From Tetradesmus obliquus (lineage: Eukaryota > Chlorophyta > Chlorophyceae > Sphaeropleales > Scenedesmaceae), in contig CP126201.1 in assembly GCA_030272155.1 (NCBI GenBank), forward strand, positions 1,284,501 through 1,348,500: a stretch of 64,000 nucleotides of DNA, written 5' to 3'. Both the position numbers and the translations under genes were made by a program. Below are positions 443-63,972 of the stretch, piece after piece (positions within the stretch are counted from its first letter, which is position 1; the number at the start of each line of letters is the position of its first letter). The notes under the pieces are model-generated. The model was not told the DNA's origin. It did not search any database and saw only the letters and a program-made list of their open reading frames with translations.

Positions 443-3400
443 GACCCTAGACCCTGATTGGGGCGAAGAGTTCTACCTTGAGTGGCACGAGGTGTCTGCC
501 GGCAAGCGCCAGGTGCTGGTGGAGGTGTGGGATTGGGACTTCTGGCGGCCCGATGAGCTGCTGGGGCGAGGCTTTGTGGACATCAACGCGCTTGCTTTTG
601 AGCCGCAAGAGGTGAGGATTTGAAGGCTTTGGTGCTGTGTGGTGCGGCATGTTGCAGGGCGGCGTTCTTCTGGTGACGTCACTGGCGGCCTGACGAGCTG
701 CTTGGGTGAGGCTTTGTGGACATCAATGCGCTTGCCTTTGAGGCGCAGGAGGTGAGAACACAGCTCGCTGCGCTGTGTGTTTGTGGCTGGTTGCAGCGTC
801 AGCATGCTTGCATTTGAGCCGCATCAGGTGAGTTGCAGGGTTGGTTTTTGAAAGGCTGCAGAGTGAGCTATGCTGGTGGAGGTGTGGGACTGGGACTTCT
901 GGCGGCCTGATGAGCTGCTTGGGCGAGGCTGTGTGGACGTCAATGCGCTTGCCTAAAAGCCGCAGGAGGTGAGATGTCTGTGGAAGTGGAAGTGTTGCTG
1001 CTGCGGCTGCCAGTTGCTGGAGCTTGACCGCAAGCTGCACCCTTCCAACATGACCAAAGTGTGGGCTGATGGCTGCCAGTTCACAACATACTGCTGCTGC
1101 TGCTGCTACTGCTGCCGCTGTCAGGTGCTTGAGCTTGACCTCAAGCTGCACCCTGCTAACATACGCAAGCTCAAAGACGTCAAGCCACCCACGCAGCAGC
1201 AGCCCAAGAAGCAGCATGTCAAGCAGGACGCGCAGCAGCAGCAGCCGCAGAGCCAGCTGCAGCGCGCGCTGTCGCACCCGCTGCTGTCGCAGCCGTCGCT
1301 GCGGCACTACTTGCAGGAAAAGCGCGGCGGCAATAAGCAGCAGCAGCAACCCAAGCAGCAGCACCCCCAGCAGCAGCCGCCGCAGCAGCAGCAGCTTCAA
1401 CCGCAGCAGCCGGAGCTGGGTACTGTGCGTGTTGCGCTGTGGTGGGCTCCCACGTGGCGGCACCACCATGCGTTTGATGTGGCGGAGCGAGTCAGCTTCT
1501 GCCTGCTGCCCGGCGAGATCAAGGTGTGCTTTGCAGGCTTGCTTATTGGGCTGGAATGGCTAGCGCACATGCATGTGAGTTGATGCATGTTTGTGAGCAA
1601 AGTATGTCACAGGGCTTATTGCGCTTCCTGCAACCAAGGTGAACAGCAGCAGTCGCTTTTCCAATTCAACAGAGTGCCAGGCTGTCAGTTGCAACTGATA
1701 ATGTATGCACCTCTCCTGCTGGCGCTGCTGCTGTAGGTGCCGCCTGTTGTGACGCATGCCAAGCTGGGCACGCTGTACGAGGAGCCATGCATCGTGTACA
1801 TCAAGGTGCGGCGCAGTGATACTGCATTGCGAGCTCCTGTCACAGTCAGTGTTTTGGTTGCTTTTGCAATGTGCATTGGCATGTGCCGATCCCCCTTCAG
1901 CATGCTCTGGTGCTTTTGCTGCTGCTCGCCTGCCATCATCACCTCTCAACACATGCCAACAGATACTCTAAATGATTCACCTCGTGTTGCCTTTTTTCCC
2001 TCTTGCCGCCAGCTGTCGCTGCTGGAGGTGCAGCTGGGCAGCAGCTGGTACCTGCAGTACCTCAAGCAGGCCAGCAAGTCCTCCCCCAAAACAGCGCGGC
2101 ACACCCAGCAGCAGCTGCACCGCAGCCTCAGCAGCGCCAGCATGTCAGACTGGCACGACGTTAATAACACCGTTGCTAACAACAGTAACATCGGCGGCGG
2201 CCTGGACATGGCGGATAGCTTGGAAGCAGCAGTCGCGGCTGTCGTGTCAGCATACCACCAAGATGCTGGCGGTGCTCAGGCCAGCAACCGGCTGTTTGAC
2301 TTTCTGGGCGGCTCAAGCTTCAGTGACAGTCCCAGCATGGCAGAAGAGGCCCGTGTGCAGCAGCAGCAGCAGGCGCTGCTGCAGCAGCACCTGGCGGCTG
2401 AGCCTGTGTATGCGCTGGCAAGGCTCAGGTTTGGCAAGCACCAGGTGCATGAGAGTAACCCGGTGCGGCTGCGGCCTGGCGGCGCGGCGGTGTTCCGCGA
2501 GCAGTTTGTGTTCACCTCAAAGCGGCCGCTGCAGCACAAGCGGCTGGTGCTGGAGGTAGGTTGTTGAATAGGCTGGTGCGGGTGTCGCATTGGCTGCCGT
2601 TGCTGGCCAAAGCCTACTGTCTCCACCCTGATCCTGTGGATTTATAGCACGTGCAGGTGGTGCTGTGCAACAAAGCCCTACCCGGGGCCAAGCTCGTGAC
2701 CTGTGGCATGCTGGCTGGTTTTGCTTCCATGCAACTCTACACCTCATGTAGTGTGATGCAGGTGGTGCTGCGCGGCAAAGCCCTGCCCGGGGGCAAGCTG
2801 ATGGTGCTCGGCATGCTGGCTGATTCTGTTCCAATGTGACTTAAAACATGTTGCTGCCGTGCTGCAGGTGGTGCTGCGCGGCAAGGCGCTGCCTGGTGGC
2901 AAGCTCATGGCGCGTGGCGAGTGGAGCGTGGTGGACTTGCTGCTGGCCAGCCCTCCCCCACCCACCACATGGCTGGGCGTGCGTGCGGTGAGTCACGATG
3001 TGCTGCTTTCACTGCATCAAGATGTGTGCTGCCATCGTTTGTGGTGGACCTGCTAGTGGCCAGCCCTCGCTTACCCACCACATGGCTGGGCGTGCGCGCG
3101 GTGAGTTCCACTGGATCACAACTGCTACAGGGTCGGGTGAAGTAGGATAAATTCGTGCAGATTGTGAGCTGTGCCGCTGCATCCCATTGCTAGGCGTTGA
3201 GCTGGTGCCTCCGAATGTGTCCAGCCCTGTGTTACTCTCACTTGGTGAACAAGTGGTTCACAAACCTTGTTACCTGTTGTGCACGTGCGCCGTGCATTTT
3301 CACTGCAACCAGCTGCAAGGCATCGGGCTGGCGCCTGCTGAAGTGGTCTGACATGCGTCAACTTTTGACATTGTGAAGCGCAGTTCTGACACATTTGACA

Positions 3401-6400
3401 CGCCTACATCAACCTGTTACATCAGCCTGTTGTGTGCTGGTGTATGTGTGCCATGCAGTTCCGCCGCAATCAGCTGCCGGGCATCGAGCTGTCCCTGCAA
3501 GGCATCGAGGGTGGCACAGTAGAGCTGCGCGCAGCAGCAGCAGACGCAGACGGCCGCGCAGCAATGTACGGCGTGCCTGCCCTCAGCCTCGCAGCAGCAA
3601 CAGCAGTCGTCGGCAGCAGCTGCAGCGTGCCAAACTCACCTCGCGTGCCTATTGGAGACAGCATGTTGCAAAAGGGGTCTGTGCTCGGTGCGAGTGCGGT
3701 GACGGCTGCGGCGGCTGCAGCAGCTGCTGCCGCTGCTGCTGCTGGCAGCAGCAGCGTGCCGAACTCACCTCGGCCTACTGCTGGCACAAGGGTTACGTCA
3801 CGCAGAGTGACGATGTTTGGCACAGCAGCTGGCGAAGGGGAGGGCGGAGGGGTTAGGGCCTCAGCGCTGGTTGTGACTGCAGCTCAGCAGCAGCAGCAGG
3901 GCTGGCTGGGCTGGCTGCAGCAGCAGGTGAGTTGGTGCGGCAGGAAGCATGCAATTGACTTGTGTTGTCAACAGTGCAGCACAGTCTGCAAACTGTCCTG
4001 TGCAGCCGCTGCCGCATCCATAGAAGCTGCAATGCAGCAGCACAACTGCACATCTGCACTGCACAACCGCACATCAAGGGCTCGTTAAGGGCTGTCACGA
4101 CCTCGCCTAACAAGTGTAAACTTTTTATCCTTTGCATGCAGCTGCCATGGCCATTGGGTGGCAGCACTACCAGCAGCAGCAGCAGCCAGGCTGCCGGCAC
4201 GCCGCGCCTCAACCCATTCACAGCCCGGCTGCAGAAGCCCTCACCCTTCGCCCGCAGCCCAAGCGCAAGCCTCCTCGCAGCAGGCGGTGGCAGCAGCAGC
4301 GCCGCAGCCACTCCCAAAGCCGCAGCAGCAGCAGCAGCAGCCACTGCAGCAGCAGCAGCGGCAGCAGACATTGTCAGCAGCAGCGTGAGCCCGATTCCAG
4401 GGCTGCCGGTGCAGCCTGAGAGGGGCTGCCTGGCTGGTCCACTAGCTACGCTGCAGCTGTTGGTGCACCGAGTGGAGCTGACGCCTGAGCCCCCGAAAGG
4501 GTGGTGGCTGCTGCTCAAGATTGGGCCGCACTGGGCCAAGAGCGTTGTGAGGTGCGAGGAGGAGCAGCGCGGCTGCTGTGAGAAGTGAGCTAGTATGAGG
4601 ACGGGTTTGCGCCATCGTGCATCACCTGCTACTGGATGAGTTATGCCCAGATTCCAGGTGCAGGACAACTACTACTGCTGCTTCAGGCGCGAATCAGACT
4701 TTCTGTGGCAGTTGCGTGCTGATTTGCCACTCCAACACCATGCTGCTGCTGCCGCAGGCGTGAGAGCGACTTTGCGTGGCAGCTGTCTGTGCCCATCTAC
4801 CACCCCACCACCACACTGCTGCTGGCGGTGTTCACTGACGCTGGGCGGGGCAAGCTGCAGTGCCTGGGCAAGCTCACGTACAGGATCAGCTACCTCATGT
4901 ACCTCAACCACAGGTGCGGTTTGTTACTGTGTCATGTTGTGCCAAGACCCCTGTATTGTTGAAGCATTGGTCATTGCGCAGTGCCAGGGCAAGCTCACGT
5001 ACTGCATCAGCTGCCTGATGCACCTCAACCACAGATGCAATGGCCACTTTGCACAGTTGCCGTTGCGTGTTGATGCTGTTCAACAGAAGTCGGTGGCATG
5101 TGCCTGGGCAAGCTCACCCACCGCATCAGCCACCTCATGTACCTCAACCACAGGTGACAAGTCCTGCTCTGTTACGTCTTGTTTGTATTTAGTGTGTCAA
5201 TAAGCTGCCTCGTGAACAAGGTCATCTACCTCATGTTCCTCAACCACGGGTATGGCTCGCTGGTTTGTGATCTGCTCAGTGCCGCATTAGCCGCTTATGT
5301 TGGTTTTGTGTTTGGGCTTTTTCTTGGCGTGCACTATCACAAGTCGCTTTGAGCCACGACAGCATGCACACATGTTATGAGAGAATGTATGTAGGCAAGA
5401 AGTCTTGTTTTGTGCTGCGCCTGCCTGCATGTTTTGTATTCGAGTTGGTCATGGCGTATGCCGCATGAGGACACCGTGTAATTCGTCTATCTACCCCTGC
5501 ATGTTTTGTGCTGCAGGGAGGTCATCAAGTCGCTGAAGCTACGCGTGACCGGCAGCAGCAGCATCCAGCAGCAGCAGCAGCACGCCGACTCGCCGCACCC
5601 ACCTGTTGTAACGCCAGGCGTCAGTGTGAGCCACACCACAGGGCTGGTGCTGCTGGGGTTTACCTGCAGCATACCTGACCGCCAGAGGCTGCTCAACGCA
5701 TACGAGCGCTCACAGTACCCACCCACGGTGCGCGTGGGTGCTTGGAAGCGGTTCTTTCTTTTGTTGCAATGTGTTCTGCTGCATGGGGCAGCAGCGCACA
5801 TGTCCCAACATATGCGAGCGTGCAGCTGGATCCCAGTGTGGGCCATATCAACCTGTTCCATGCAGCTAGCAGGGACCCAACCACGCGCGCCGCTGCTGCT
5901 GTTGCTGACAACCTCATGTGTTGTAAGTGCACCACATCAGCCTGTTTCACTCAGCAAGCAGAGACCTTATCACTGCTACTGCTGCGGCTGCTGCTCGTCG
6001 CTTCCATTTACTGGCCAGGTGCACCACATCAGCCTGTTCCACGCAGCCAGCAGGGACCTCATCACGCAGAGCCACCACCAGAAGGTGGTGGCCTGGCTGT
6101 CTGCTGCTGCGGACCCCCCGGTGCCACCCGCTGCTGCGTGGAAGGTGCTGGAGACAGGCAGGGAGAAGTTCCGGCTGTCACGTTCACGGTGAGAAGTTTG
6201 ACACTTTGAACTTCACATTCTGAACGTCTTGATAGTGTGAATTGTTTGGTTTGAAGTATTGGTTTGGCCTAGGTTGCCTGCTGCTGCCTGGAAGGTGCTG
6301 GAGACAGGCAGGGAGAAGTTCCGGCTGTCACGATCGAGGTGAGAAGTTGTGCACTGAACTTCAGCATGTGAACTTCTTATTCTGAACTTTAGGTATGAGC

Positions 6401-8848
6401 CTAGATTGCCGCTTGCAGCGTGGAAGGCGCTGAAGACAGGAAGGGCGATGTTCGGCATTATGATGACCATGTGTCTTTTTTTAACAGCATCACTAACAGC
6501 ATCACTATCGTCCAATCAAACATTGCTACAATCCCGCAGGCACAACATCCACCGGCTGCGTGTGGCCACCAGCCTGGAACTACTTCAACGACCTCAAGGC
6601 GTGGAGCCGCCTCAATGAGCTTTGATATACAAATCAGGTCATGTTCTTATCTCTCATGGTCATCATCATCAAATCACTCACAGGATTGTGTGATCATACA
6701 CATTCCGCAGGCACAACATCCACCGGCTGCGTGTAGCCACCAGCTGGTTGCCCTCAGCCTACAACTACTTCAACGACCTCAAGGCGTGGAGCCGCCCCAT
6801 ATGACCATGGATATGCATGTCACGCTCTCACCTGTAATGTCTTTATCATTAAATCACTCAAAGGGATATACGCTCATACACATTTCGCAGGCACAACATC
6901 CACCGGCTGAGAGTAGCCACCAGCTGGGTGCCGTCGGCCTGGAACTACTTCAACGACCTCAAGGCGTGGAGCCGCCCCACACAAACTGTCATACCCTGCA
7001 CTGCCCTGGTTCTGCAGGCACAACATCCACCGGCTGCGTGTGGCCACCAGCTGGGTGCCCTCAGCCTGGAACTACTTCAACGACCTCAAGGCGTGGAGCC
7101 GCCCCAGCCACAACCTGGCCAGCGTGGCGGTCATGGCAGCGCTGTGCTTCAGGCCCATCGCCAGCCTGTTTGCGTTCCTGCTGTGGCGCAGCGTGGTGGC
7201 GCTGCGGCGGCTGCTGATGCACGTGAGCGGCCGCTGAACGCATGTGTGCTGCGTGCTTACGTCTATCTCCTGCTATACTATGCTCCTGCTCTTGCTGCAT
7301 CAGCTGAGCTAGAGGTTGTACTTTTGTACCGTTTTGTCAGCTTGGGTGGAGCTTTGCAATACACACACAGCTTGTGTGGGGGCACTGCGGCGGCTGCTGA
7401 TGCACCGTGAGTGACTCTGTTGTGATAAAAGTTTTGTCGTGCTGAATCAGCAGTGGTGGCGGGGTTCTGCCTGTTGCTCACTGTGTTGTAGCTTGGCAAG
7501 TGCGTGTGCAGGACGCTTGATCACATGCAGACCTGTGCTTCATGCTCCTAGCCACTACAGACCCATTATCTTGCCTGCTGTGTTACACTATTGTCATGAC
7601 CATGTCATATAACAGGGCCTGGTGGAGTACCTAGGGTTTGACCTCGGGGAGCTCTTCGACACAGCCGGGCTGCTGCCCTCAGATCTGTTATATTACGAAG
7701 ATGACGAGGACGATGACGCAGCAAGCACCAGCAGCGGCGGCAGCGCCAGCAGCTCCGTCTTCGGACCCTACAACGCGGCGGGAGGCGGCAGCAGCGGCGG
7801 CGGCGGCGGCTGGGGCGGCGGCGGCGGCGGCGTGCGTGATCTGGCGGCCATCATGATGTTCCAGCCGCGGCGGTTGAAGATGCTCAAGCGGCGCTACGAG
7901 CAGCTGCTGCGCATCTCGCTGCAGGTAAGGGGTCTGTTCTGCCCGCTTGACACTTTCTTTTTGTTCTATTTTGTGTGCCTCTGGAGCAGCGCAGAGCTGC
8001 TGCTGCTGTGACTGCTCATGCTGAAAGGCAAGAGCCGCACCTAGCTGAGTCGACAGCGGTGCGTGGCAAGAAACAGTGCAGGGAGGGCAATGCATGTGAT
8101 CTGGCGGCCATCATGATGTTCCAGCCACGGCGGCTGAAGATGCTCAAGCGGCGATACGAGCAGCTGCTGCGCATCTCGCTGCAGGTGCGGTGCGCTGGGG
8201 TCCATTGATTGGAGACAATGCAAGCATGGTATTCAAAATCCGATAGTGGTGTTGAAGCGGCGCTGCGAGAAGCTGCTGCATAGCACATTGCAGGCGAGGC
8301 GTGGCTGAACTGCTTGCTAAATTGTCACCTGCATCTGCCTTGGTCCTCTGCAGGTCCAGAGCTGTACAACCACAGCTACACTGCTGCAACCACTGACCTG
8401 AACATTTCCTGCTGGAAGGCCGCTGCCCTGCTGGCAACGTGTCCACTGCTGTGGCTGCTGCTGCAGGTGCAGAACCGCATCGATGACCTGGCGGTGGTCT
8501 TCAAGCGCCTGCAGGCCATGTCACTCTTTAAAACTGGTATCACTGCTGCTGCTGCTGCCCCTGCTGCCGCTGCTGCTGCAGGTGCAGAACCGCATCGATG
8601 ATCTAGCCATGGTCTTTGAGCGCCTGCAGGCCATGGTCACCGGCCAGGACCCCCTCGCCACTGCGCTGTTCTTCTGGCGCAGCCTGCTGCTTGCTGCTGC
8701 GCTGTGGCTGGCGGGCCCCGGGGTGCTGCTGTTTGGCTGGTGGTGCTGGGAGGTGCTGCGGCCGCCCTGGTGGCGCAAGGCGCCTGGGGTGAAGGGGCCT
8801 GTGCAGTTTGTGAGCAACCTGCCTTCGAAATCACTCGAAGACTTGTGA
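443..8848 (+). CDS. MCTP-type multiple C2 domain and transmembrane protein (5' partial)
   Basis: Thirteen exons join in frame: 443-611, 1125-1523, 1737-1805, 2013-2555, 2868-2987, 3459-3926, 4142-4551, 4758-4913, 5517-5727, 6019-6188, 7018-7222, 7616-7924 and 8582-8848 (TGA), about 1,164 residues. The first visible exon is already mid-C2 domain (DPDWGEEFYLEWHEV, then VEVWDWDFWRPDELLGRG), so the N terminus lies left of the window. Further C2-like segments follow (VRLRPGGAAVFREQFVF; ESDFAWQLSVPIYHPTTTLL), separated by Gln/Ser/Ala-rich linkers. The C-terminal half matches the MCTP phosphoribosyltransferase-C region in order: GLVLLGFTCS, VHHISLF, RVATSWVPSAWNYFNDLKAW, a first hydrophobic hairpin, an acidic loop, RRLKMLKRRYEQLLRISLQ, VQNRIDDLAMVFERLQAM, then a second hydrophobic hairpin. 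Plant MCTPs tether ER to plasma membrane in a Ca2+/lipid-dependent way; that role here is inferred. Most introns hold exon-edge copies. Confidence 0.85.
669..972 (+). repeat. Two donor-side copies of exon 443-611
   Basis: Copies at about 681-752 and 869-970 repeat the exon's 3' part (CGGCCTGATGAGCTGCT through the GTGAG donor). The second has an in-frame TAA where the exon encodes Phe. Confidence 0.85.
1003..1064 (+). repeat. Acceptor-side copy of exon 1125-1523
   Basis: The start of the next exon (LELDLKLHPANI) is repeated here as LELDRKLHPSNM after a degraded acceptor. It lies upstream of the exon and carries only its 5' part. Confidence 0.75.
2650..2820 (+). repeat. Two acceptor-side copies of exon 2868-2987
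   Basis: Copies at about 2655-2712 and 2757-2818 repeat GCAG, then GTGGTGCTGCGCGGCAAAGC and following bases: the 5' half of the exon with its acceptor. Confidence 0.85.
3033..3103 (+). repeat. Donor-side copy of exon 2868-2987
   Basis: Repeats the exon's 3' part (GTGGACTTGCTG-like start, CCCACCACATGGCTGGGCGT, then GCGGTGAGT donor). Confidence 0.85.
3165..3345 (+). repeat. Two decayed acceptor-side copies of exon 3459-3926
   Basis: Segments near 3170-3220 and 3296-3345 resemble the exon start CCGCAATCAGCTGCCGGGCA followed by TCGAGCTG, with several substitutions. Confidence 0.55.
4655..4715 (+). repeat. Acceptor-side copy of exon 4758-4913
   Basis: Encodes RRESDFLWQL where the exon encodes RRESDFAWQL, preceded by TTCAG. 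It could alternatively be an alternative exon. Confidence 0.6.
4978..5252 (+). repeat. Three donor-side copies of exon 4758-4913
   Basis: Copies at about 4981-5034, 5099-5155 and a weak one at 5200-5252 repeat GGCAAGCTCACGTAC, CATCAGC and CTCAACCACAGGT, the exon's 3' end with donor. Confidence 0.8.
5840..5972 (+). repeat. Two acceptor-side copies of exon 6019-6188
   Basis: Segments near 5845-5885 and 5930-5972 repeat CACATCAGCCTGTTCCA and AGCAGGGACC-type sequence from the exon's 5' part. Confidence 0.75.
6268..6455 (+). repeat. Two donor-side copies of exon 6019-6188
   Basis: The first (6273-6343) repeats TGGAAGGTGCTGGAGACAGG through AGGTGAGAAGT almost perfectly; the second (about 6400-6452) is decayed and lacks a donor. 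Confidence 0.85.
6532..6985 (+). repeat. Three acceptor-side copies of exon 7018-7222
   Basis: Copies begin at about 6539, 6709 and 6890, each GCAGGCACAACATCCACCGG onward to TCAAGGCGTGGAGCCGCC. Adjacent upstream intron sequence (AAATCACTCA, CATACACATT) is also repeated, so the unit spans the intron/exon boundary. Confidence 0.9.
7385..7413 (+). repeat. Short donor-side copy of exon 7018-7222
   Basis: Repeats GCGGCGGCTGCTGATGCAC followed by GTGAGT, the last codons plus donor of the exon. Confidence 0.7.
8092..8300 (+). repeat. Donor-side copies of exon 7616-7924
   Basis: The copy at 8095-8190 repeats GTGATCTGGCGGCCATCATG through CTGCAGGTGCGG nearly perfectly. A decayed second copy lies at about 8250-8298 (AAGCGGCGCTGCGAGAAGCTG). 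Confidence 0.88.
8462..8522 (+). repeat. Acceptor-side copy of exon 8582-8848
   Basis: CTGCAG followed by GTGCAGAACCGCATCGATGA and on to CTGCAGGCCATG duplicates the exon's first ~55 nt. Confidence 0.88.
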
Positions 8849-10509
8849 GGCGGCTGCTTGTGAGGCTCTGCTGGTTGCTGGCACAAGAACCTGCCAGTTG
8901 CAGTTGCTTTGATTTAACGCAGGCGTCGCTGTGCATGTTCCTGTTTTGCTGGCTGGCCCTGGCGTGCAGCTGTTTGGCTGGTGGTGCTGGGAGGTGCTGC
9001 GGCCGCCCTGGTGGCGCAAGGCGCCGGGGGTGAAGGGGCCGGTGCAGTTTGTGAGCAACCTGCCCAGCAAGTCGCTGGCGGACTTGTGAGGTGGCTGCTT
9101 GCAAGGTGCTGCTGCTGGTTTCTGGCATGTGGCCGTTGTTTTTGCCTCCAAGTAAATTGCCATGCTGGATTGCAGGCGGGTTGTGCATGCAAGCAAGGCC
9201 AAGCGCCTGCAGGCGCAGCAGCGCGAGTGCTAGGGAGTGTAGAGGATGGGCGGGAGGCTTCTAAGATCCACCTTTAGCAGGGCTAGGCGTGGCGACGCTG
9301 CTGACGCTCTGTGGCGGTGCAGCAGCCACGCGGGCTGCAGTTATGTACAATGTTAGCTGCATGTAGGCTGCAAGATCAGCAGTCTGCAACCTTGCGTTCA
9401 TGTCGGCACAGTGGCTCAAGTTGTCTTGCGCTTGCATTGTGCTTGCCACAGCACCATCTATGTATCATATCAGGTAGTACAAGCAGCTGCAGGCGGCAGC
9501 TGTCTGTGGTCTAGATAGGGGCTTCTGACAAACAGGTGCATGTTCAATCTTCAGCAATGTGTATGCAGTGGGTCATGGCATCTGTTGAGTGCAGGGCTGC
9601 GCTCTCCTTCGTGCTATGGTGCTGGGTGCATTACAGCGTAGTGTTTGAAGGGGAGGGTCCATGCTGGCACATCACATGGCACATGTTCATGGCACAAGCC
9701 ACACTGTAGCATAAGCTGTTGGATATTGGCATACAGCTTCAGCGGCAGCTTGCCACTCTGTCCGACAGCTGAGTTGGCTTGCTGATGACAGCAACATTGC
9801 TGGGATTTAGATGTGCATTTCATCGAGTGTGATTTAATGTTGCTGCTGCACGCACAGCAGCAGCTGCACGGCTCAGTCACTTTGCATCACTAGAGCTAGC
9901 GTATGTATGCTTGCATGCCACAGGCGTGCAGCCTGCTTGTGTGGAAACCCGCTGCGGTTGCAGCTGTAGGCATTGTGTGGCACACAATTCAAGCATCATT
10001 GCCATTATGCCTGTAATTAATGTGCAGGTCTACCTGTGTTCAATCCAATCAGCTGTGTCTTGATTGTGCTTCGCATCGGGCTGGCAGCCACATGGCGTGC
10101 TCACAAGTGCTTTGGACAAACCTGCTGCTGCTTTCTGATTTGCAGCTGAGTAATGCACCGCTGATACAGGCTGGCATGCTGCAACGCATGTAGGATTGCA
10201 TGGGATGAAACCACACGGTTTTAGTGAGGGATTGCAGGGGCAGTAGATGCTGCTGCACCACATGCATGCACACCAGTCACTGCCAATGTAATGTGACAAG
10301 TGACAAACCCCAGTCACTCCTTATGCGCTTGGCGTCAAAATAGAGATCCTTGCCCGGTTCGTATGTGTAGTGCAAAAACTCGTGCAAGCAGGCTAACTGC
10401 GTCGGGCATTGTTTACTGATCTGCGATTAAGCAGCATCCTCGTACTGCTGGCAATCCCGGCACCCGTACCCAAGCTGACAGCACAGAGCTCTTGAGACCA
10501 GCAGCAACA
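8849..10509. other. 3' flank of the MCTP gene and intergenic region
   Basis: Positions 8970-9090 hold a second copy of the MCTP final-exon 3' half, including its own open frame and TGA. The remainder has no exon I can support. A TGTAA at 10012-10016 is a possible but distant poly(A) signal. Several short open frames here look random. Confidence 0.6.
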
Positions 10510-14314
<3,805 letters not shown>

Positions 14315-37068: not shown

Positions 37069-37106
<38 letters not shown>

Positions 37107-40491: not shown

Positions 40492-40524
<33 letters not shown>

Positions 40525-43500: not shown

Positions 43501-43709
43501 GCAGCAGCAGGGTGCGGCTGAGCTGATGGAGCAGCAAGATGCAGCAGCAGCAGCCGCTGGACCAGGGTCTGCGACAGACTCAGATGTGGAGACAGCAGGA
43601 GATACCCACCCCAATCAACAGCAGCAGCAGCAGCAGCGCGGTGTGGCGTTCAACCCTGCAGCTGATCCCACCACGCCTTGCCGGCACCCACCTCCCAAAG
43701 CAGCAGCGA

Positions 43710-43743
<34 letters not shown>

Positions 43744-44212: not shown

Positions 44213-44248
<36 letters not shown>

Positions 44249-44338
44249 GGGCCAGCTGCTGCAGCAGCAAGTGCTGACGAGACCGGCGGGGATGCTGCTG
44301 GAAGCAATGAAAGTCATGATGACGGCGAGAACAGTTGA
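39099..44338 (+). CDS. AP2-domain transcription factor, 5' end unresolved
   Basis: Three in-phase exons: 39099-39278, 39686-40135 and 40457-44338 (TGA). The first encodes the second half of an AP2 DNA-binding domain (AHIWDAKKQVYLGGFDNEVQ, AAKAHDIMAVKCRGVKTIVN) followed by an AP2-subfamily linker; the second starts EDIIAALRKSSR, resembling the linker of two-AP2-repeat plant proteins. The first half of the domain (YRGV strand) should lie in an exon upstream, but I found none between 37377 and 39098, so the model is 5'-incomplete or the domain is truncated. The last exon is 3,882 nt with no intron and encodes 1,293 residues of poly-Gln, poly-Ala, Gly- and Leu/Ser-Gly-rich repeats (e.g. LSGLSGPDLRLPGLTG), resembling an activation or condensate-forming region. 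Likely nuclear (inference). Confidence 0.8.
39318..39606 (+). repeat. Three donor-side copies of AP2 exon 39099-39278
   Basis: Segments near 39325, 39400 and 39488 repeat ATCGTGAACTTCAAGCTGGC-type sequence and, in the last, CACCAGCAGCAAGCTAGC then CGGGTGAGTGTG. Confidence 0.75.
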
Positions 44339-53700: not shown

Positions 53701-54496
53701 CGAACTCCTGGCGGCAGACCAGCACAAACACCACACCCAGCAGCAGCAGCAGCGGCAAGCGTGCCGTTGTGGTTGGTGGTGGCTGGGCGGGCTTTGGCGC
53801 TGCACTGGCACTGGCAAAGGCGGGAGCACAGGTGACACGCGGCTGGCTGCATGCATCAGCCGAACGGCTGAACTCTGCAAACTGAAAGCAGTGTATCTGT
53901 AGGGCAGCTGATTGAGCTGTCCGCGTACGTAGCTTTAGCCAGCCTCAACTGTTTTGTTCAAAAGTAAAATTTAAGTTATTTTGAACGCAGGTGACGCTGC
54001 TGGATGCATCTGCCACCCCTGGTGGCCTCAGCAGCGCATTTCAGACTCCAGGAGGGCAGCTGGTGGAGCCTGGAATCAAAGGGTTCTGGTACCAGGTGGG
54101 TGATCAATGTAGTATGTCGTACATGCATTTTACCATTTCTTAAAAGTTGGTGCAACCTGGCATCAAGGGCTTCTGGTATCAGGTGGCTGCACAATGTAGT
54201 ATGTCTTACTTGCATTTTATCATGTCATGACAGTTGATGTAGCCTGGCATAAAGGGCTTCTGGTACCAGGTGGGTGATCGAAGCATGATGATGTCACCTT
54301 CAATCTGCAATGACAGCTGGTGCAGCCTGTCAGCAACAAGTTGAAACCAGGTCCACACACCTGATAAGCAGTTCCGGTATATCACGGTGCTGCTGCTGCA
54401 TTACGCTAACATCAAGCCGCTGTGCATCCCCAACCATGACTGCTGCACGTGCGCATCGGTGTGATATATGTACGCCTTACTCCTACTGCAACGTGC

Positions 54497-54527: not shown

Positions 54528-54661
54528 TGCTGCTGCTGCTGCTGCTGCCCAGTACGCCAACATCGAGGCCATTTGTGGCTAAGCTGGGCACCCCCAGCCC
54601 CTTCACACCACATGTGCACCCTGATGTGACACACTCACGCTCTGTCTCTGCCGTGTTGCGT

Positions 54662-54697
<36 letters not shown>

Positions 54698-56809
54698 TAC
54701 GGCGGCGTCGAGGTGCTGGGAATTGCAAGCCCTCACTTTCACATGTGCGCAGTGGGGTGACACACATGTGTATGTTACCGTTGTAACGTGTCTGCTGCTG
54801 CTGCTGCTGCCGCAGTATGCCAACATTGAGGCGCTGGTGGCTGAGCTGGGCATCCCCAGCCCCTTCACACCCTTCACACGATCAAGCTTCTGGAGCCCTG
54901 ACGGATTACAGGTGAGCCGTGAGCAGCAGCAGTACATGTGCGCCCTTCATGCACTCAAGCTTCTGGAGCCCTGGTGGCCTGCAGGTGAGCCTGCAGAAAC
55001 AGCAACAGCAGCAGCAATGTGGTGTCAGAGCTGGGCATCCCCAGCCCCCTTCACATGATCAAGCTTCTGGAGCCCCCACGGCCTGCAGGTGGATGACACG
55101 AGGCAGCAGCAGCAGCAGCAGCAGCAGCAGTGGCGGCAGCAGCAGCAGCAGCAGCGGCGGCGGCGGCAGCAGCAGCAGCAGCAGCAGCGGCAGTCATCTG
55201 AAGAAGCAGCTGTAGTGCACACAACAGCAGCGGCAGCAGTTGTCTAGCAGCAGCTGCAGCAGCTCCTGCATGTGCTGTTCCCTGCGGTACAAATGCATGT
55301 GCTGTTCCCTGCGGTACAAATGCATGTGCTGTTCCCTGCGGTACAAATGCATGTGCTGTTCCCTGCGGTACAAATGCATGTGCTGTTTCCTGCGGTACAA
55401 ATGCATGTGCTGTTCCCTGCGGTACAAATGCATGTGCTGTTCCCTGCAGTACAAATGCATGTGCTGTTCCCTGCAGTACAAATGCATGTGCTGTTCCCTG
55501 CGGCACAAATGCATGTGCTGTTCCCTGCGGTACAAATGCATGTGCTGTTCCCTGCAGTACAAATGCATGAGTGCTGCCCCTTGTACTGTGGCCTGTGTGC
55601 TTGATGCAACTTTACGGTCAAACCCTGCAACCTTGCAGGTGGAATCTCCCATCTCCCAAGGCCTGCCCTCGCCTACCGAAACCCCTGGGCTCATCTGTAC
55701 AACGATTACACAGCTGCAATGCACTGCTCATTTCTTCTATTGCAGGTGGAATCTCCCATAGTTCAGGCCTCCCTCGCCTGCCAGCCCCTCGGCTCAATCG
55801 TACACACAGCGCCACTGTGCTGTAGTGCCCTTCAGTTTGAGGCTTTTTTTGTTGTTGTTATGATTCCCACCTTGCACTGAACTACTGCAATGTAGGTGGA
55901 GTCACCCATCTTCCATCACCTCCCTCGCCTGCCGACCCCCTCGGCTCCTTCGTACAACAATCACACAGCTAGCTTGCACTGCTGGCGTCCTGCAACCTTG
56001 CAGGTGGAGTCTTTCATTTTTCAAGACCTGCCTCGCCTGCCGACCCCCCTCGGCTCCTACGTACAACAGTCACACAGCTAGCTTGCACTGCTGGCGTCCT
56101 GCAACCTCGCAGGTTGAGTCTCCCATCTTCCAAGACCTGCCTCGCCTGCCGACCCCCCTCGGCTCCTTCGTACAACAATCACACAGGTAGCTTGCACTGC
56201 TGGCGTCCTGCAACCTTGCAGGTGGAGTCTCCCATCTTTCAAGACCTGCCTCGCCTGCCGACCCCTCTTGGCTCATTTGTACACACAGCGCCACTCTTCA
56301 GGCAGCTGCCCCTGGCGGATCGGGCCACAGCAGCCCCCCTGGTCAAAGCCCTGCTGGAGCACGATCTGGATGACACGTTATATAACAGTTATGACAGTCA
56401 GTCCGCGTACGAGCTGTTCCGGGGGGCGGGAGTTTCGAAGATGCTGTACGAGAAGTTTTTGGCGCCGATGCTGCTGGTGACGCTGTTTGCGCCGCCTACG
56501 GAGCTGTCTGCAGCTGCTGCTCTTGGTAAGTGCCGTTGCCTGGCTTCGACTGGCGTTGACTTGTGTTGACTGGCGCTGACCATACATCTGCTAGGGTTCT
56601 CTTGCTGCTGGTGACGCTGTTTGCGTCACCTACTGAGCTGTCTGCAGCTGCTGCTCTTGGTAAGTGGCATTGAATGGCGTTGACCGGCATTGACCGTACA
56701 TCTGCCAACGTCCCTCCTGCTGCTGGTCATGCTGTTTGTGCCGCCCACTGAGCTGTCTGCTGCTGCTGCACTGGGCGGGTGGCATTGACTGTACATCTGC
56801 TAGCCTTCC

Positions 56810-56871
<62 letters not shown>

Positions 56872-57221
56872 ACGCTGCTTGCGACGCCTACTGAGGTCTC
56901 TGCGGCTGCTGCGCTGGGTGGGTTAGCATTGACTGTACTTTTGGTAACATTCCTGCTGGCTGCTGCTGCTGCTGCTGCCGCTGCTGCTGCCGTTGCCGCT
57001 GCTGCGGTTGCTTTGCTGATTGGGTGGCTGATGTTGAGTGCTGCCCCCCAGAAACAATACATGATGGTGGTGTTTATGCATGTCACGAGGCTCCTCGCGC
57101 ACTTGTGTCATGCCATAACGCATACCTACCGATTTCGTGTGCCCTCTTGGTGAGTAGCACGCCATGCCAAGCACTGTCTGCGCCACGGCAACAACATGCC
57201 CACACATTTAGTTTCTAGTTT

Positions 57222-57257
<36 letters not shown>

Positions 57258-57334
57258 AGGCGCGCTGTACTACTTTGCGCTTGCGCACCAGCCTGACTTT
57301 GATGTGCGCTGGTGCAAGGGGCCCATCGGTGAGG

Positions 57335-57369
<35 letters not shown>

Positions 57370-57528
57370 ATGACAGGCTGCTGTTCCAGCTGATGTAGAG
57401 GACTGGGAATGGTTTGTGCTGTGTGCTAGCCGGCTGCCGTCCTGGGACAACAGCACCACCATGCAGGTGTCAAACCCTGCGTCCATCACACAATTGCCAC
57501 ACGAACTAGATCACAAAACCATGCTACA

Positions 57529-57562
<34 letters not shown>

Positions 57563-57691
57563 GACAGGCGAGCTCATCTTCTCCCCGCTGGTCAGCCGGC
57601 TGCAGTCCCTGGGCGTCACCATACTGGGTGGCAGGCGCGCGCAGCAGCTGCTGCCAATGCAAGATCACAAAACATTAGCCAGTGCCAACCC

Positions 57692-57723
<32 letters not shown>

Positions 57724-59354
57724 AGTTGCCTGGTGTGGTTGTTGCCAAGGGGCCGGATGGTGTGCTGGAGCAGCACCATGCAGATGTGATCGTGCTGGCG
57801 GCTGGCGTGCCGGCGCTGCAGCAGCTGCTGCGCAGCAGCCCAGTGCTGGCAGCAGCAGGTGGGCACATGCCTTTTTTGCTACATCTTTTGTAAGCATGTT
57901 ATTGTGCTGGCGGCTGGTGTGCCAGCGCATATGCACGAGAGCCCTCTGCGGCATGGCGCGAGTGCCCTCTGCGTTCCACATGCTTGCCGCCTGTTTTTGC
58001 TGGAGCCTTTCAAAAGTGCTCCTGTCACTCTTTTGCTTCTACTGCCGTTCTTCAGATGAGTGTGATGGGTGTGAACTGCAGCCACGTGCTGGCGGTGCGG
58101 CTTTGGCTGCAGCAGAAGCTGAACCTGCTGTTACATCTGCAACTAAATCCTGCTGGGGCCCGTGTTGCTTGCTGTTTGCAGTGGACTTGCGGGGCATGAT
58201 GGGAGTGAACTGCAGCGACTGGCGGTGCGGCTGTGGTTGCAGCATACTGGAATTTACTTCAACCCTGCTTAGTTGCTTTTCTGCAGATGACCTGCGAGGC
58301 GTGATGGGAGTGAACTGCAGTGACGTGCTGGCGGTGCGGCTGTGGCTGCAGCTGACTAATCCTGCTGCTGTTGCCGCCGTTGCTTTTGTTGTTCTGCAGA
58401 TGACCTGCGAGGCGTGATGAATGTCAACTGCAGTGACGTGCTGGTGGTGCGGCTGTGGCTGCAGCTGACTAATCCCTGCTGCTGTTTCCGCCGTTGCTTT
58501 TGCCCTTGATTGTCACTCTGCAGACGACCTGCGAGGCGTGATGAATGTCAACTGCAGCGACGTGTGCGGTGCGGCTGTGGCTGCAGCAGACTCAACCCTG
58601 CTGCTGCTGCTGCTTTTGCCCTGGATTGTCACTCTGCAGATGACCTGCGAGGCGTGATGAATGTCAACTGCAGTGACGTGCTGGCGGTGCGGCTGTGGCT
58701 GCAGCAGAAGCTGAGCCTGCGCAGTGCCAGCAACGTCGTGGCAGGCTTTGATGACGGAGTCGGCGGAACCTTCTTCCAGCTGGACAAGCTGCAGGTGAGC
58801 TGTTACTTTGTTGTTATAACATGTTGCATTTTGTAGGCAGCGCTGCGCAGCGCCCCGCAGCGCCAGCAATGTTGTGGCAGGCTTTGATGACGGAGTGGGC
58901 GGCACCTTCTTCCAGCTGGACAAGCTGCAGGTGAGCTGTTACTTTGTTGTTATAACATGTTGCATTTTGTAGGCAGCGCAACGCCGCGCAGCGCCAGCAA
59001 CGTTGTGGCAGGCTTTGACGATGGAGTGGGCGGCACCTTCTTCCAGCTGGACAAGCTGCAGGTGAGCTGTTACTTTGTGTTGTTACATGTTATTTTATGT
59101 TATGTTATGCTATTTTATATGTCACAATGTGTTGTTTTGGCAGCGCTACGCAGCGCCAGCAGCGTTGTTGCAGGTGTGATGCTACCTCAGGGGCACCTTC
59201 TTCCCAGCTGGAAAAGGTGCAGGTGAGTTGTCAGCTACATGTCATAACTTGTTATGTTGCATAGACAGCGCTGGGCAGCGCCAGCACCGTGGCCTCTGGG
59301 CATCTTTAATTTGATTGGTGGCACTTGACATGTAGCACACTGAGCCATTCCCGA

Positions 59355-59403
<49 letters not shown>

Positions 59404-60742
59404 GCCGCCGCCGCAGGACATGTACAAGGGCACTGCTGGCAGCGTGTTGGAGTTTGACATGTACCACGCTGAGCCGCTGCTGCCGCTGGCAGATGAGGCC
59501 ATCATTCAGCGCATGCTGCAGACATACCTGGTGCGTGGACACGTTTTTTGTTTGTCAGGTGTTGTCGGTAGTATTGCGCACTGCTGCTGCTGCCGGTGCC
59601 AGATGAAACAGTCATGCAGGGCATGCTGCAGACCTACCTGGCAGGTGACGAGGGTCTGTTTGTTTTTGGGTTTTGTTGTTGGCTGTACTGTGCTCTGCTG
59701 CTGGTGTCAGATGAGACGGTCATGCAGCGCATGCTGCAGACCTACCTGGCAGGTGACGAGGCTCTGTTTGTTTTTGGGTTTTCTTGTTGGCTGTGATGTG
59801 CTCTGCTGCTGGTGTCAGATGAGACGGTCATGCAGCGCATGCTGCAGACCTACCTGGCAGGTGACGAGGCTCTGTTTGTTTTTGGGTTTTCTTGTTGGCT
59901 GTAATGTGCTCTGCTGCCTGTGCCAGATGAGACGGTCATGCAGCGCATGCTGCAGACCTACCTGGTGCGTGGACACTGCTGTTTGTGTAGTTTGAACAGT
60001 GGTGTTTCTGGCTGCCCTGCACATGTGATCACTGACGCAGTTGGCATACAGCACATGCTGCAGGCATTCTTGGTGTGTGTCTCGTGATTTTGCATTGCAC
60101 GTGTCACCAAGTGTTCTGGTACTTGCTTGTGTTCGGTGCATGCTGCTATTGCCTTAACTGTGCGCTGCTGCGATGTCGTAAGCAATATCTTACCATACAG
60201 CGCAACTTGCATGTGTGACTGGCATGTGATGCTTCAGTTTATGCTCCCTTCAATGCGCGAGGTGCGAGCTTGTAACAGAGCTGCAGGCAATGCAGCAGCA
60301 GGGAGAAGCATGAAGCAACAAGAAAGCAGCAGCAGCAGGAGCCAAAGCAGAAGAAGCACAACAGCCCACAGACTCTTCCAACTGTACCCGCCCTGCTGCT
60401 GCCTCGTGCCATCTTCTCTTTTCTCCCTGCAGGCGCCCGCGCTGCCCGGCGGCGCTGCCCAGGCGTCCACGCTGACTGTAACACACGCCAGCAGACCTAG
60501 ACTACAACTTGCCTGCCCTCCTGTTGCTGCTGCAGGCGCCTGCAGTGCCCGGTGGAGTTGCCGAGGCCTCCACGCTGACTGTAACAGACGCAAGCCGACC
60601 TAGACTACACCTTGCCTGCCCTGCTGCTGTGTTGTGCCGATATCGCCTCCCCCTGCAGGCACCCGCGCTGTCTGGTGGAGTTGCCGAGGCCTCAAGGCTG
60701 ACTGTAACAGATGCCAGCAGACCTAGACTACAACCTGCCTGC

Positions 60743-60796
<54 letters not shown>

Positions 60797-61636
60797 TCTG
60801 CAGGCACCCGCGCTGCCTGTTGGAGTTGCCGAGGCTTCAAGACTCACTGTAACAGATGCCAGCGTGCTGCGCTTCAGAAATGCTGTCACCCGCTTCAGCC
60901 CAGGCAGCAACAGCCAACTGCCAGGCATTTCAACCAGCCTGCCAAACCTGTTTGTAGCAGGGGATTGTGTGAAGCAAGGCCCTGGCACGCACGGCTGCAA
61001 GGGGCTGTCGCAGGAGAAGGCATATGTTTCAGGGCTGCAGGTGGGCATTTCAATGTTGTTACAAGCAGTTTGTAACATGTTACAGTGTTGACGGCTGGTG
61101 ACTGCGTGAAGCAGGGCCCAGGCACGCACAGCTGCAAGGGGCTGTTGCAGGACAAGGCGTACGTGTCACAGCTGCAGGAGGTGTTCATACGGCTGTTACT
61201 TTGTTACATTCGGTTTATAACATGTTGTGCTTGACACTATGTTGCTGGCTGGCAACCGCGCAGCAGAGCAGCTGGGCCCAGCCCCAGGTGCCCGGGTGCT
61301 GCCAGTAGAGCCTGATGAGCCGCAATGTCCCTGCACTGACACCTGCATTGTCACCATCCTTCCTGCAGGCCGGCAACCGCGCAGCCGCACACCTGCCTTG
61401 GCCTGGCCCCGGGCGCCCGGGTGCTGCCAGTAGAGCCTGAAGAGACAATCTGCACCTGCACTGACACTTTGAAAAATGCTGTGTGCTGCTGCAGGCTGGC
61501 AATCGCGCAGCAGCACAGCTGGGCCTGGCCCCAGGTGCCCGGGTGCTGCCGGTGGAGCCTGACGAGCCACATGTGGCAGCAGCCAAGCAGCTGCTGAAGG
61601 TGCAGCGGCAGCTGGGCCAGCTGGCAGGCAGCGTGG

Positions 61637-61671
<35 letters not shown>

Positions 61672-61854
61672 AGAGGCACAAGCATGCGGCCTGCTGACAC
61701 AAGCAGCAGCAGCGGCAGCAGCAGCGGCGGCTGGATAGTAGAGGCGGGTGACAGTGAGCGGCGTGCACAGGCCAGCCATGAGCTGAGGGACCTGATGCGG
61801 GCTGAGGTGGCGGAGCAGGTTGGTGAACAGAAACGGGTCGAACAGCAAGCCTGA
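53205..61854 (+). CDS. FAD-dependent amine-oxidase/carotene-desaturase-like flavoprotein, plastid-type
   Basis: Twelve exons in phase: 53205-53346, 53569-53831, 53991-54095, 54816-54911, 56222-56525, 57260-57328, 57568-57858, 58640-58794, 59417-59530, 60238-60261 (8-codon microexon, less certain), 60804-61040 and 61495-61854 (TGA), about 719 residues. Exon 1 is Ser/Arg/Ala-rich, transit-peptide-like; a Gln/Ser linker follows. The dinucleotide fold is at about residues 110-145 (AVVVGGGWAGFGAALALAKAG, ending TLLDASATPGG). Further family landmarks are GIKGFWYQ, YELFRGAGVSKMLYEKF, LYYFALAHQPDFDVRWCKG, ADVIVLAAGVPALQQLL and the C-terminal FAD-binding LPNLFVAGDCVKQGPG with EKAYVSGLQAGNRAA. Plants have a comparable zeta-carotene-desaturase-like family of poorly defined substrate; the reaction here is unknown. 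The start was chosen because only donor 53346 preserves the frame. Confidence 0.86.
54140..54355 (+). repeat. Three donor-side copies of exon 53991-54095
   Basis: Copies near 54147, 54232 and 54312 repeat TTG(G/A)TG(C/T)A(A/G)CCTGGCAT(C/A)AA, GGGCTTCTGGTA and CAGGTGG; the third is weak. Confidence 0.82.
54390..54745 (+). repeat. Three acceptor-side copies of exon 54816-54911
   Basis: Copies near 54398, 54550 and 54700 repeat (C/T)AGTACGCCAACATCGAGG, AGCTGGGCA and CCCCAGCCCCTTCACACC with increasing decay. Confidence 0.8.
54940..55095 (+). repeat. Two donor-side copies of exon 54816-54911
   Basis: Copies near 54945-54990 and 55028-55094 repeat CTCAAGCTTCTGGAGCCC and GGCCTGCAGGTG. Confidence 0.85.
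55270..55566. repeat. 27-bp minisatellite, eleven copies
   Basis: Eleven units of ATGTGCTGTTCCCTGCGGTA CAAATGC lie head to tail in an intron of the flavoprotein gene. The length is a multiple of three, so several frames on both strands stay open; these are not genes. Confidence 0.95.
55635..56175 (+). repeat. Five acceptor-side copies of exon 56222-56525
   Basis: Copies at about 55637, 55745, 55895, 56003 and 56112 repeat GCAGGT(G/T)GA(G/A)TCTCCCATC, CCTCGCCTGCCGACCCC and TCGGCTCCT. The last three include ~50 nt of shared upstream intron (CACACAGCTAGCTTGCACTG). Confidence 0.93.
56598..56930 (+). repeat. Three donor-side copies of exon 56222-56525
   Basis: Copies near 56605, 56715 and 56866 repeat CTGCTGGTGACGCTGTTTGC, ACTGAGCTGTCTGC and GCTGCTGC. 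The third follows a (CTG)19 run at 56812-56868. Confidence 0.88.
57893..57936 (+). repeat. Partial copy of exon 57568-57858
   Basis: ATTGTGCTGGCGGCTGGTGT GCCAGCGC matches the exon's GTGATCGTGCTGGCGGCTGG CGTGCC near its 3' end, but the donor is gone. Confidence 0.6.
58053..58606 (+). repeat. Five acceptor-side copies of exon 58640-58794
   Basis: Copies at about 58056, 58182, 58287, 58400 and 58524 repeat GATGACCTGCGAGGCGTGAT, GTGAACTGCAGTGACGTGCT and GGCGGTGCGGCTGTGGCTGC at ~105-125-bp spacing. Confidence 0.94.
58835..59292 (+). repeat. Four donor-side copies of exon 58640-58794
   Basis: Copies near 58845, 58980, 59145 and 59265 repeat CGCAGCGCCAGCAANGTTGT, GGCGGCACCTTCTTCCAGCT and GACAAGCTGCAGGTGAGCTG; the last two decay progressively. 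Confidence 0.93.
59590..60080 (+). repeat. Five donor-side copies of exon 59417-59530
   Basis: Copies near 59597, 59707, 59813, 59925 and 60040 repeat CAGATGAGACGGTCATGCAG and CGCATGCTGCAGACCTACCT with GGCAGGTGAC or GGTGCGTGG. The middle two are virtually identical over more than 100 bp. Confidence 0.94.
60430..60725 (+). repeat. Three acceptor-side copies of exon 60804-61040
   Basis: Copies near 60430, 60533 and 60655 repeat CTGCAGGC(G/A)CC(C/T)GC(G/A), GGTGGAGTTGCCGAGGC and CTGACTGTAACAGA. A (CTG)17 tract (60744-60794) then precedes the true acceptor. Confidence 0.9.
61085..61180 (+). repeat. Donor-side copy of exon 60804-61040
   Basis: GCTGGTGACTGCGTGAAGCA through AAGGCGTACGTGTCACAGCT repeats the exon part coding GDCVKQGPGT. 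Confidence 0.9.
61240..61440 (+). repeat. Two acceptor-side copies of exon 61495-61854
   Basis: Copies near 61245 and 61368 repeat GCTGGCAACCGCGCAGCAGA, GCCCGGGTGCTGCCAGTAGA and GCCTGA(T/A)GAG. Confidence 0.9.
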
Positions 61855-62033
61855 ATGCTGTGACGGCTGGACGCAGTTGCCGTACTTGATTGGTAGCAGC
61901 GAGCTGCGTGAACCTGATGCGGGTGGAGGTGGCGGAGCAAGTGGGGGGTCATAAGCAGCAGGAGCAGCAGCAGGCGATGTGATGATTCCACAATGCGCGG
62001 CGCAGGCCACGTGGTGTGGCTGCTGTCGCTTGA

Positions 62034-63290: not shown

Positions 63291-63972
63291 TCACTCCTCC
63301 CACTGCGGCTCACACACCAGCCCTTCACTCACACTCTCATCATCAACCCCAGCCGCCAGCTCACATGCATAGCTGCCACCAAACTCCAGCGCTGACCTGT
63401 CAAATGACGTCACTTCCACCAGCTTCCCCCATTCGTAACACTCTGCAGTCGCCTTTGCAGAATACGACTCCACCGAATGCGGCACAAAACCGCCGCGCGT
63501 GGGGCCGCCCACTTTGCTGAAGGTTTTAGGGTTTGCCTGGATCTTGAGGACTAGGGTTCTGGGGACCAGGGTTGTGCTGATCTGGCGTGCTGTGACAATG
63601 ATCAGGCCTTGATCTGGCTGTATGTTGGTGCTGAAGAGGGTGGGGCTCTGCGGCTTGAAGTGCCAGGTGCGCTGCCTGGAGCTGTACCTACAGCAGCGGC
63701 AGCAGCAGCAGTGGAGCGACAACCAGTTGCATTGACAGTAACTGCCATGGCTACGCTCGGCTACAGTCGCGATTGCAAACGAACACATTGCCAGTGGTGC
63801 AGGTGTTGCACATCATCATGCTGTCAGTGCACCCATCCATCAGTTCACAATGCACCGCTGTGGGGTCCAGTCTAATCAACACAAACAACGGCCCACCCCA
63901 TCAGCAGCGCGCAGGACAGCGGCACAGGTAGCTTGTCCATGTTGAGGGTGGGCAGCATATTGCAGATTGGTG
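63291..63972 (-). CDS. Unrecognised protein, last two exons (5' partial at window edge)
   Basis: Two exons join in phase on the minus strand: 63972-63897 and 63687-63291 (TGA). They encode ICNMLPTLNMDKLPVPLSCA followed by a soluble-looking domain with DQGLIIVTARQISTTLVPRT, FSKVGGPTRGGFVPHSVESY, YEWGKLVEVTSFDRSALEFG and an acidic C terminus (DDESVSEG). There is no low-complexity triplet tract, and two partial copies of the 3' end lie downstream, the pattern seen at the ends of real genes in this window; both support a true exon. I do not recognise the family. The gene continues right of the window. Confidence 0.55.

Follow-up and report, generated by a model that had tools for sequence, protein, structure and literature searches.

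Introns of the green alga Tetradesmus obliquus appear to have grown by recurrent head-to-tail duplication of stretches of about 117 bp that straddle splice junctions, a reading of predicted exons to which we give a probability of roughly 0.8. The stretch of DNA in which the pattern was noted, here called the window, comprises 64,000 nucleotides (C11:1284501-1348500, 57% GC) of a genome of 104,662,953 bases in 17 contigs. Copies that follow an exon contain its 3' part and donor site (donor-side copies), and copies that precede an exon contain its 5' part and acceptor site (acceptor-side copies). In the self-comparison of the window that the initial annotation had proposed, direct repeats dominate, with 170 direct and 2 inverted pairs of at least 40 bits at a spacing of 100-800 bp.

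Polarity of exon-edge copies

Exon models were produced by our own two-strand hidden Markov gene finder, trained on genomic sequence alone; its 28 training sequences were the window together with 8 loci of kinase genes and 19 loci of 10 kb drawn at random (a twentieth, L010, was excluded as all N). The splice consensus that it learned is CAG/GTGAG for donors and TGCAG/G for acceptors, the slash marking the junction. Out of 500 predicted exons, 280 were retained as real; the filter, which itself relies on exon-exon similarity, removed 136 because they were weak or short, 80 because they resembled copies and 4 as duplicates; the 4 duplicates are equal in length to their counterparts, and 2 of them are donor-side copies in a kinesin gene. 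The retained exons delimit 229 gaps, taken as introns, and every exon, extended by 60 bases on either side, was aligned to the gap before it and the gap after it at a threshold of at least 35 bits. Some exons were misplaced or missed by the gene finder: that at 60659-60818 is probably a copy, minus-strand exons at 54-57 kb are spurious, and plus-strand exons at 55-57 kb were overlooked. A scan of the window against Rfam at gathering thresholds gave no match.

Across the window and the 27 other loci, 163 intronic copies conform to the polarity described above (94 donor-edge copies downstream and 69 acceptor-edge copies upstream), against a chance expectation per 229 gaps of 0.12 donor-edge and 0.43 acceptor-edge direct matches, estimated from 61,428 exon-gap pairs taken from different gene chains. 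The splice junction is crossed by 90 of 94 donor-side and 68 of 69 acceptor-side copies (158 of 163 together). This edge scoring of introns against their flanking exons, which the initial annotation had also suggested, found few wrong-edge copies, 6 of 169; the polarity that it had claimed holds for 163 of 169 copies. In four of the six cases (window 8788-8883, L013, L023 and L015) the copy lies at most 7 bases from the end of the preceding exon, which suggests that the "exon" there is really a donor-side copy, or else a gene end that has been duplicated; these four look like errors of the gene model. Two cases remain, one in a low-complexity open reading frame at 54-55 kb and one in L028 at 69% identity. 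Other matches were confined to the exon interior (17), confined to the flank (19) or inverted (2). No copy of a whole exon was found in the 229 gaps, a weak negative since only 2.7 were expected and the 4 duplicate exons had been filtered out beforehand.

In the window alone, 63 donor-side and 40 acceptor-side copies reach 35 bits, 2 of the former (and so 2 of the 163) depending on the spurious minus-strand exons at 55-57 kb. Given the missed plus-strand exons the real numbers are probably higher, and the counts are compatible with the roughly 80 and more than 50 copies first reported. The polarity itself is a nearly forced outcome of tandem duplication combined with retention of the protein, and it counters scattered copying more than it demonstrates a new process.

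A test independent of the gene finder was provided by aligning proteins of relatives to the window (tblastn lists, counted by hand). In three genes anchored in this way, encoding a kinesin, an amine oxidase-like protein and a DUF3172 protein, 40 conforming copies were counted, 22 upstream with the 5' part and 18 downstream with the 3' part, and no copy violated the polarity; among the 18 downstream copies, that at 59143-59175 ends before the end of the exon at the protein level. The count excluded low-complexity matches, the ambiguous last exon, the repeated stretch at 54015-54296 and one copy of an exon interior (57898-57927). The relatives' proteins traverse each exon of these genes once, with the copies falling between exons, and the copied segments are present once in P0001, P0002, P0121, P0127 and P0242. 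In the protein alignment, the kinesin exon for amino acids (aa) 244-308 has three upstream copies of its first 15 residues and four downstream copies of approximately aa 272-308, the kinesin exon for aa 570-638 has two upstream copies of its 5' part, and further exons of the other two genes display the same polarised copies. A kinesin product matches Scenedesmus sp. NREL 46B-D3 at 83%. For the DUF3172 product the match is T. obliquus A0A383WLA3 (98%, full length), and for the amine oxidase-like product it is T. obliquus OEZ85_005677, at 81% across 85% of a gene model that is itself wrong in part, with most exons at 92-98%. The annotated OEZ85_005677 appears to start with two frames of one exon-edge repeat (54015-54296) and to end in a copy (61357-61559), likely an annotation error due to decoy splice sites.

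Length and content of the duplicated unit

For the copy nearest to each exon edge the median offset is 120 bp, with 56 of 89 offsets at 100-130 bp and 67 of 89 at 90-150 bp, and steps within arrays are of about the same length. Tandem-repeat periods of at least 30 bp peak at 100-149 bp, with few at 30-90 bp. Offsets that are multiples of three are not favoured (remainders 0, 1 and 2 in 22, 32 and 35 cases). The length of the unit is approximately constant while its exon part varies (rho = -0.74 over 73 pairs, a correlation to which the cut at 160 bp contributes of necessity).

Homology extends to the intron parts of the units (mean z 1.72, 66 pairs, p = 3e-11), and they remain so when the clear cases are removed (mean z 0.81, n = 47, p = 4e-7); this residual homology indicates that the whole unit, exon edge together with adjacent intron, was duplicated. 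According to the initial annotation the units often include 40-80 nt of intron. The alignable intron part is short, with medians of only 13 and 16.5 nt, although more is implied by the length of the unit. Most of the 26 full-unit repeats that could be listed exceed one extra unit, and breakpoints and micro-homology are thus not placeable in them.

Fate of the copies

Within arrays of at least two copies, changes specific to one copy fall on codon positions 1, 2 and 3 in 109, 100 and 148 cases, and changes specific to the exon, in which all copies agree against it, in 14, 6 and 38 cases. The copies are therefore close to neutral, with a slight lean towards third positions, and the exon is constrained. 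Coding constraint on the copies themselves was considered and rejected, since the raw third-position excess (0.107, 0.082 and 0.205 on the donor side) comes mostly from the exon when changes are polarised. Among indels in the exon parts of copies, 50 of 57 are not multiples of three. Alignable copies retain GT in 75 of 89 cases and AG in 59 of 68; by a rough estimate these dinucleotides are lost at about the rate of the flanking bases, so no purge of decoys is apparent.

Copies mostly differ from their exon by approximately 5-25%. When nearest and farthest copies were compared in 35 arrays, the nearest resembled the exon more closely in 23, less closely in 10 and equally in 2 (p = 0.0018); such a tendency of nearer copies to be younger is expected if new copies originate at the exon edge. 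Dating by paralogues was attempted with searches of the genomic DNA using 57000-62000 and 30700-37400, which gave, among the matches listed, just the query and short repeat-like matches.

Prevalence and intron length

Copies were detected in 34 of 60 gaps of the window, in 32 of 141 gaps of the random loci and in 5 of 28 gaps of the kinase loci, with arrays occupying 40%, 10% and 18% of gap bases, respectively. The window is thus denser in copies than the random loci. The description in the initial annotation of copies that fill the introns of every gene was too strong; copies are found across the genome, and the process is a common one without being universal. Tandem families with a spacing of 80-160 bp occur in the random loci at 5.2 per 10 kb of intron, 1.3 per 10 kb of other non-coding sequence and 1.7 per 10 kb of exon when assigned by majority of bases (5.9, 1.1 and 0.9 when any contact with an intron counts as intronic), and 4 of the 19 random loci have no such family.

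Gaps with copies are longer than copy-free gaps (p = 1e-12), and when the array span is removed their median is 250 nt, compared with 252 nt for copy-free gaps, so that array and core are additive. The mean intron length of T. obliquus is reported as 462 bp, compared with 230 bp in Raphidocelis, 302 bp in Monoraphidium, 284 bp in Chromochloris and 270 bp in Chlamydomonas (PMC5966456). Arrays may account for this difference. Such an explanation is limited by the copy-free gaps of the random loci, which average 452 nt (median 264 nt), and by the array share of 10% of gap bases there; the average of 452 nt is probably due in part to missed exons, and decayed copies would also escape detection.

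Mechanism and alternative explanations

The following course of events is proposed. A stretch of about 117 bp (mostly 100-130 bp) that spans a splice junction would be duplicated head to tail, repeatedly. The copy of the exon edge that is contiguous with the rest of the exon would retain the reading frame and remain in use, and the other copy, with its duplicated splice site, would stay in the intron and decay nearly unconstrained. Further duplications at the same junction would displace older copies outward and generate arrays, and the intron would grow in steps of about 117 nt upon a core of about 250 nt. Head-to-tail duplication across the boundary was already the model of the initial annotation, and it is backed by the polarity, the narrow range of unit lengths, the homology of full units including their intron parts, the near-neutral decay, the outward ageing and the additive intron lengths. 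The exon designated as real would be the one actually spliced, and duplications that divert splicing to the wrong copy would presumably be removed by selection. The causal mutation may be a staggered break that is filled in and joined: such breaks, filled by Pol alpha-primase with CST and then joined, give rise to small tandem duplications in mouse stem cells, and the same report adds that nickase breaks yield such duplications in different species (PMC8355091).

Several observations weigh against this model in its plainest form. Edge families outnumber families confined to introns by 7.6 to 2.0 per 10 kb of target in the random loci (20 and 10 families, 3.8-fold) and by 27.8 to 3.7 in the window (31 and 11 families, 7.5-fold), whereas uniform placement with neutral decay predicts a ratio of 1.28 in simulations of detection. 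(The simulations of detection and of unit placement assume a unit of 117 +- 10 bp, 0.08 indels per substitution and a uniform age range, on which the expected values depend.) Unclassified families number 22 of 52 in the random loci and 10 of 52 in the window (32 of 104); none is wholly intronic, and the edge excess is therefore not diluted by them. Only 6 of 67 units have an exon share above 0.65, where 36% would be expected (p = 0.003 for the donor type and again for the acceptor type). The intron parts have diverged further than in the simulation, with an identity of 0.65 against 0.87 in 13 pairs whose exon parts are less than 6% diverged, and of 0.667 against 0.71-0.73 over 76 pairs. In most pairs alignable homology stops a few bases inside the intron, and the lean of copy-specific changes towards third positions is significant (chi-square p = 0.004). 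Uniform duplication followed by neutral decay therefore does not account for the whole pattern.

A hotspot at the junction, which would explain the edge excess and the skewed exon share, or gene conversion from exon to copy, which would explain the edge excess and the over-diverged intron parts, is likely to contribute; neither is put more strongly because edge counts could be too high through the way exons were predicted and filtered. Selection for the branch point and donor context could also explain the skewed exon share. Identity between copies is 0.857 in exon parts and 0.688 in intron parts, the exon parts being higher in 33 of 34 families. Gene conversion was at one stage regarded as necessary and is now kept only as likely, since serial copying from a conserved exon permits up to a twofold difference. 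A more specific proposal, put forward tentatively, is that the junction itself is targeted (for instance by two nicks flanking it at a distance of about 117 bp from each other, in a process coupled to its transcription or splicing) and a segment of fixed length duplicated across both of its sides, that conversion from the selected exon refreshes the exon parts of the copies, and that introns thereby grow in quanta at both ends, the difference from relatives' introns (462 bp against 230-302 bp) being largely the product.

It is also conceivable, if rather unlikely, that no special process exists and that short tandem duplications arise uniformly, the boundary-straddling ones being left over by selection and by the easier detection of a constrained exon part. 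Polarity would require nothing further, tandem families with overlapping unit lengths also occur entirely within introns and outside them, and a gene end is duplicated as well; the edge excess nevertheless goes far beyond the simulated difference in detection, tandem families in the random loci are concentrated in introns, and the placement of units departs from uniform. We consider it highly improbable that the copies are functional, as alternative or decoy exon edges under selection for the regulation of splicing. Their exon parts are indeed better conserved than the adjoining intron, also between copies, most keep GT or AG, and raw mismatches are most frequent at third codon positions. Copy-specific substitutions are nearly equal over codon positions, however, most indels cause frameshifts, the roughly twofold difference in divergence between intron and exon parts of copies is nearly permitted by serial copying from the exon, and the segments occur once in the five proteins of relatives named above, though the annotated P0241 seems to hold copies at its ends.

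Scattered copying of exon ends into adjacent introns, by insertion or template switching, has an equally small chance of being correct. That most pairs align over little more than their exon part would suit it, the alignment reaching just a few bases into the intron, but the intron parts are homologous even without the clear cases, the unit length is nearly constant despite the variable exon part (with the proviso given above for the 160-bp cut), and only 17 interior and 2 inverted matches stand against 163 conforming copies. An assembly artefact, in the form of unmerged haplotypes or misassembled repeats, is hardly credible: tandem repeats are prone to assembly error, yet the copies mostly differ from the exon by the margin given above and carry frameshifts, they are present in random-locus gaps also, and another T. 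obliquus record, OEZ85_005677, seems to start with two frames of one such repeat. Recurrent duplication of junction-straddling stretches, with the departures just described, remains our preferred explanation.

Arrays of the window

On the plus strand, a C2-domain gene (443-973) has an exon at 443-611 followed by three donor-side copies (682-756, 799-832 and 871-973; 82-89% identity), and an acceptor-side copy at 993-1051 (84.7%) precedes the exon at 1125-1523. Two acceptor-side copies lie upstream and one donor-side copy (3041-3106) downstream of exon 2868-2987 (array 2652-3106), one upstream and three downstream of exon 4758-4913 (4672-5271), and three upstream and one downstream of exon 7018-7222 (6536-7405; identity up to 94.8%). 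The exon starting at 8582 has an acceptor-side copy at 8443-8520, and the gene end at 8707-8883 is tandemly duplicated at 8948-9127 (region 8443-9127), apparently with its stop codon; duplication is thus not limited to splice junctions. Exon 12349-12464 has two donor-side copies (12349-12735; 89-92%). In the DUF3172 gene, the exon ending at 16281 has two donor-side copies at 16336-16420 and 16465-16566 (16147-16566), and four acceptor-side copies (starting at 16767, 16827, 16974 and 17092) precede the exon that begins at 17212 (16767-17295), the segment being present once in P0121.

The kinesin gene is on the minus strand. Its exon for aa 570-638 (20335-20129) has three acceptor-side copies upstream with respect to the transcript (20398-20866; region 20129-20866), and its exon for aa 244-308 (23387-23193) has three acceptor-side copies upstream (23463-23744) and, downstream, four donor-side copies at the protein level or five at the DNA level (22556-23145), with a unit of about 125 bp (22556-23744). 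Also on the minus strand, exon 47728-48071 has one donor-side and one acceptor-side copy (47595-48190), and exon 48784-49101 has four donor-side (48322-48737) and four acceptor-side copies (49179-49601; region 48322-49601).

Returning to the plus strand, five donor-side copies (91-96%) follow exon 26450-26705 of a CobW-like gene (26450-27304). In a gene with weak, sub-cut-off similarity to phosphotransferases (APH), exons 30751-30879 and 31172-31295 have one and three donor-side copies, respectively (30751-31672). Exon 32070-32218 has one acceptor-side and six donor-side copies (31820-33864); a minisatellite at 32712-33165 in a predicted intron, with 49-bp steps of approximately 99% identity, is far more uniform than the surrounding arrays of exon edges. 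Exons 34769-34922, 35601-35848 and 36425-36525 have three donor-side copies apiece (34769-36925). A dispersed repeat of about 120 bp lies between exons of a gene at 34189-34309, with copies of 91-95% identity on contigs C16 and C1, while C5 and C9 carry weaker matches; the copies inspected (C16, C1 and C5) adjoin arrays of a unit of about 60 bp. Four acceptor-side copies (38612-39015) precede exon 39099-39278, with a unit of about 115-125 bp (38612-39278), and the same predicted chain contains a long stretch called as one exon (40457-44333; 3,877 nt) and full of glutamine and alanine runs.

The amine oxidase-like gene, also on the plus strand, has arrays at five exons, the first two and the last from hand reading of the alignments. 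The exon for aa 40-73 (54813-54914; aligned with P0241) has one 5'-part copy upstream and two 3'-part copies downstream (54550-55094), that for aa 66-174 (56201-56527) has five and three (55621-56925), that for aa 291-344 (58633-58794) has four and three (58062-59282), that for aa 344-382 (59414-59530) has four downstream with a unit of 108-110 bp (59414-59986), and that for aa 383-463 (60804-61046) has three upstream and one downstream (60387-61181). At 55267-55576 an array of 54-bp steps (approximately 96% identity) was called as a probably spurious minus-strand exon by the gene finder.

Comparison with known systems

To our knowledge, the lengthening of introns without transposons is little documented. 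The growth steps described here can be counted and dated with the source exon still present, which makes rate, age and effects on splicing measurable in one genome, and they constitute a natural experiment in splice-site choice, in which many near-identical donors or acceptors lie about 117 nt apart and the protein needs one. Gene models of Tetradesmus and its kin may have intronic decoys spliced in, as one annotated protein appears to. A hotspot at the junction, if real, would imply a mutational mechanism tied to transcription or splicing. No description of exon-edge arrays as a process of intron growth was found in the literature on introns and on duplication and break repair, in a search whose coverage mostly excluded subscription journals.

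Tandem arrays occur inside introns as minisatellites. Unlike those, the units described here hold a piece of the adjacent functional exon with its splice site, in a fixed polarity. The fill-in of breaks by CST and Pol alpha-primase (PMC8355091) resembles the present case in that short segments are duplicated head to tail, with non-exon flank included in the unit here (mean z 1.72, n = 66); as far as the accessible part of that report goes, the duplications were induced at chosen breaks in mouse stem cells (for example with 43-bp overhangs), without a preference for junctions, a 117-bp unit or a link to introns. At least seven routes of intron gain have been proposed, among them tandem genomic duplication (PMC3443670), in which, likewise, a short tandem duplication turns exon sequence intronic by means of a duplicated splice site; in that model an exon segment bearing AGGT is duplicated and a new intron results, whereas in T. 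obliquus the duplications affect junctions that were already there, with no new intron in evidence. Tandem duplication over a junction is a known cause of intron gain, as in the potato RdRp gene (PMC4974935), where exon sequence also becomes intronic across an intron-exon boundary and the splice signals of the parent junction are inherited. The potato case is one event that created a new intron, whereas here existing introns have been lengthened repeatedly, at many junctions, by a narrow range of unit lengths and with the formation of arrays. Junction-spanning duplication is thus already known for intron gain; the literature search described above turned up no case in which introns already present are extended in steps by exon-edge units, as seen here in many genes of a single genome.

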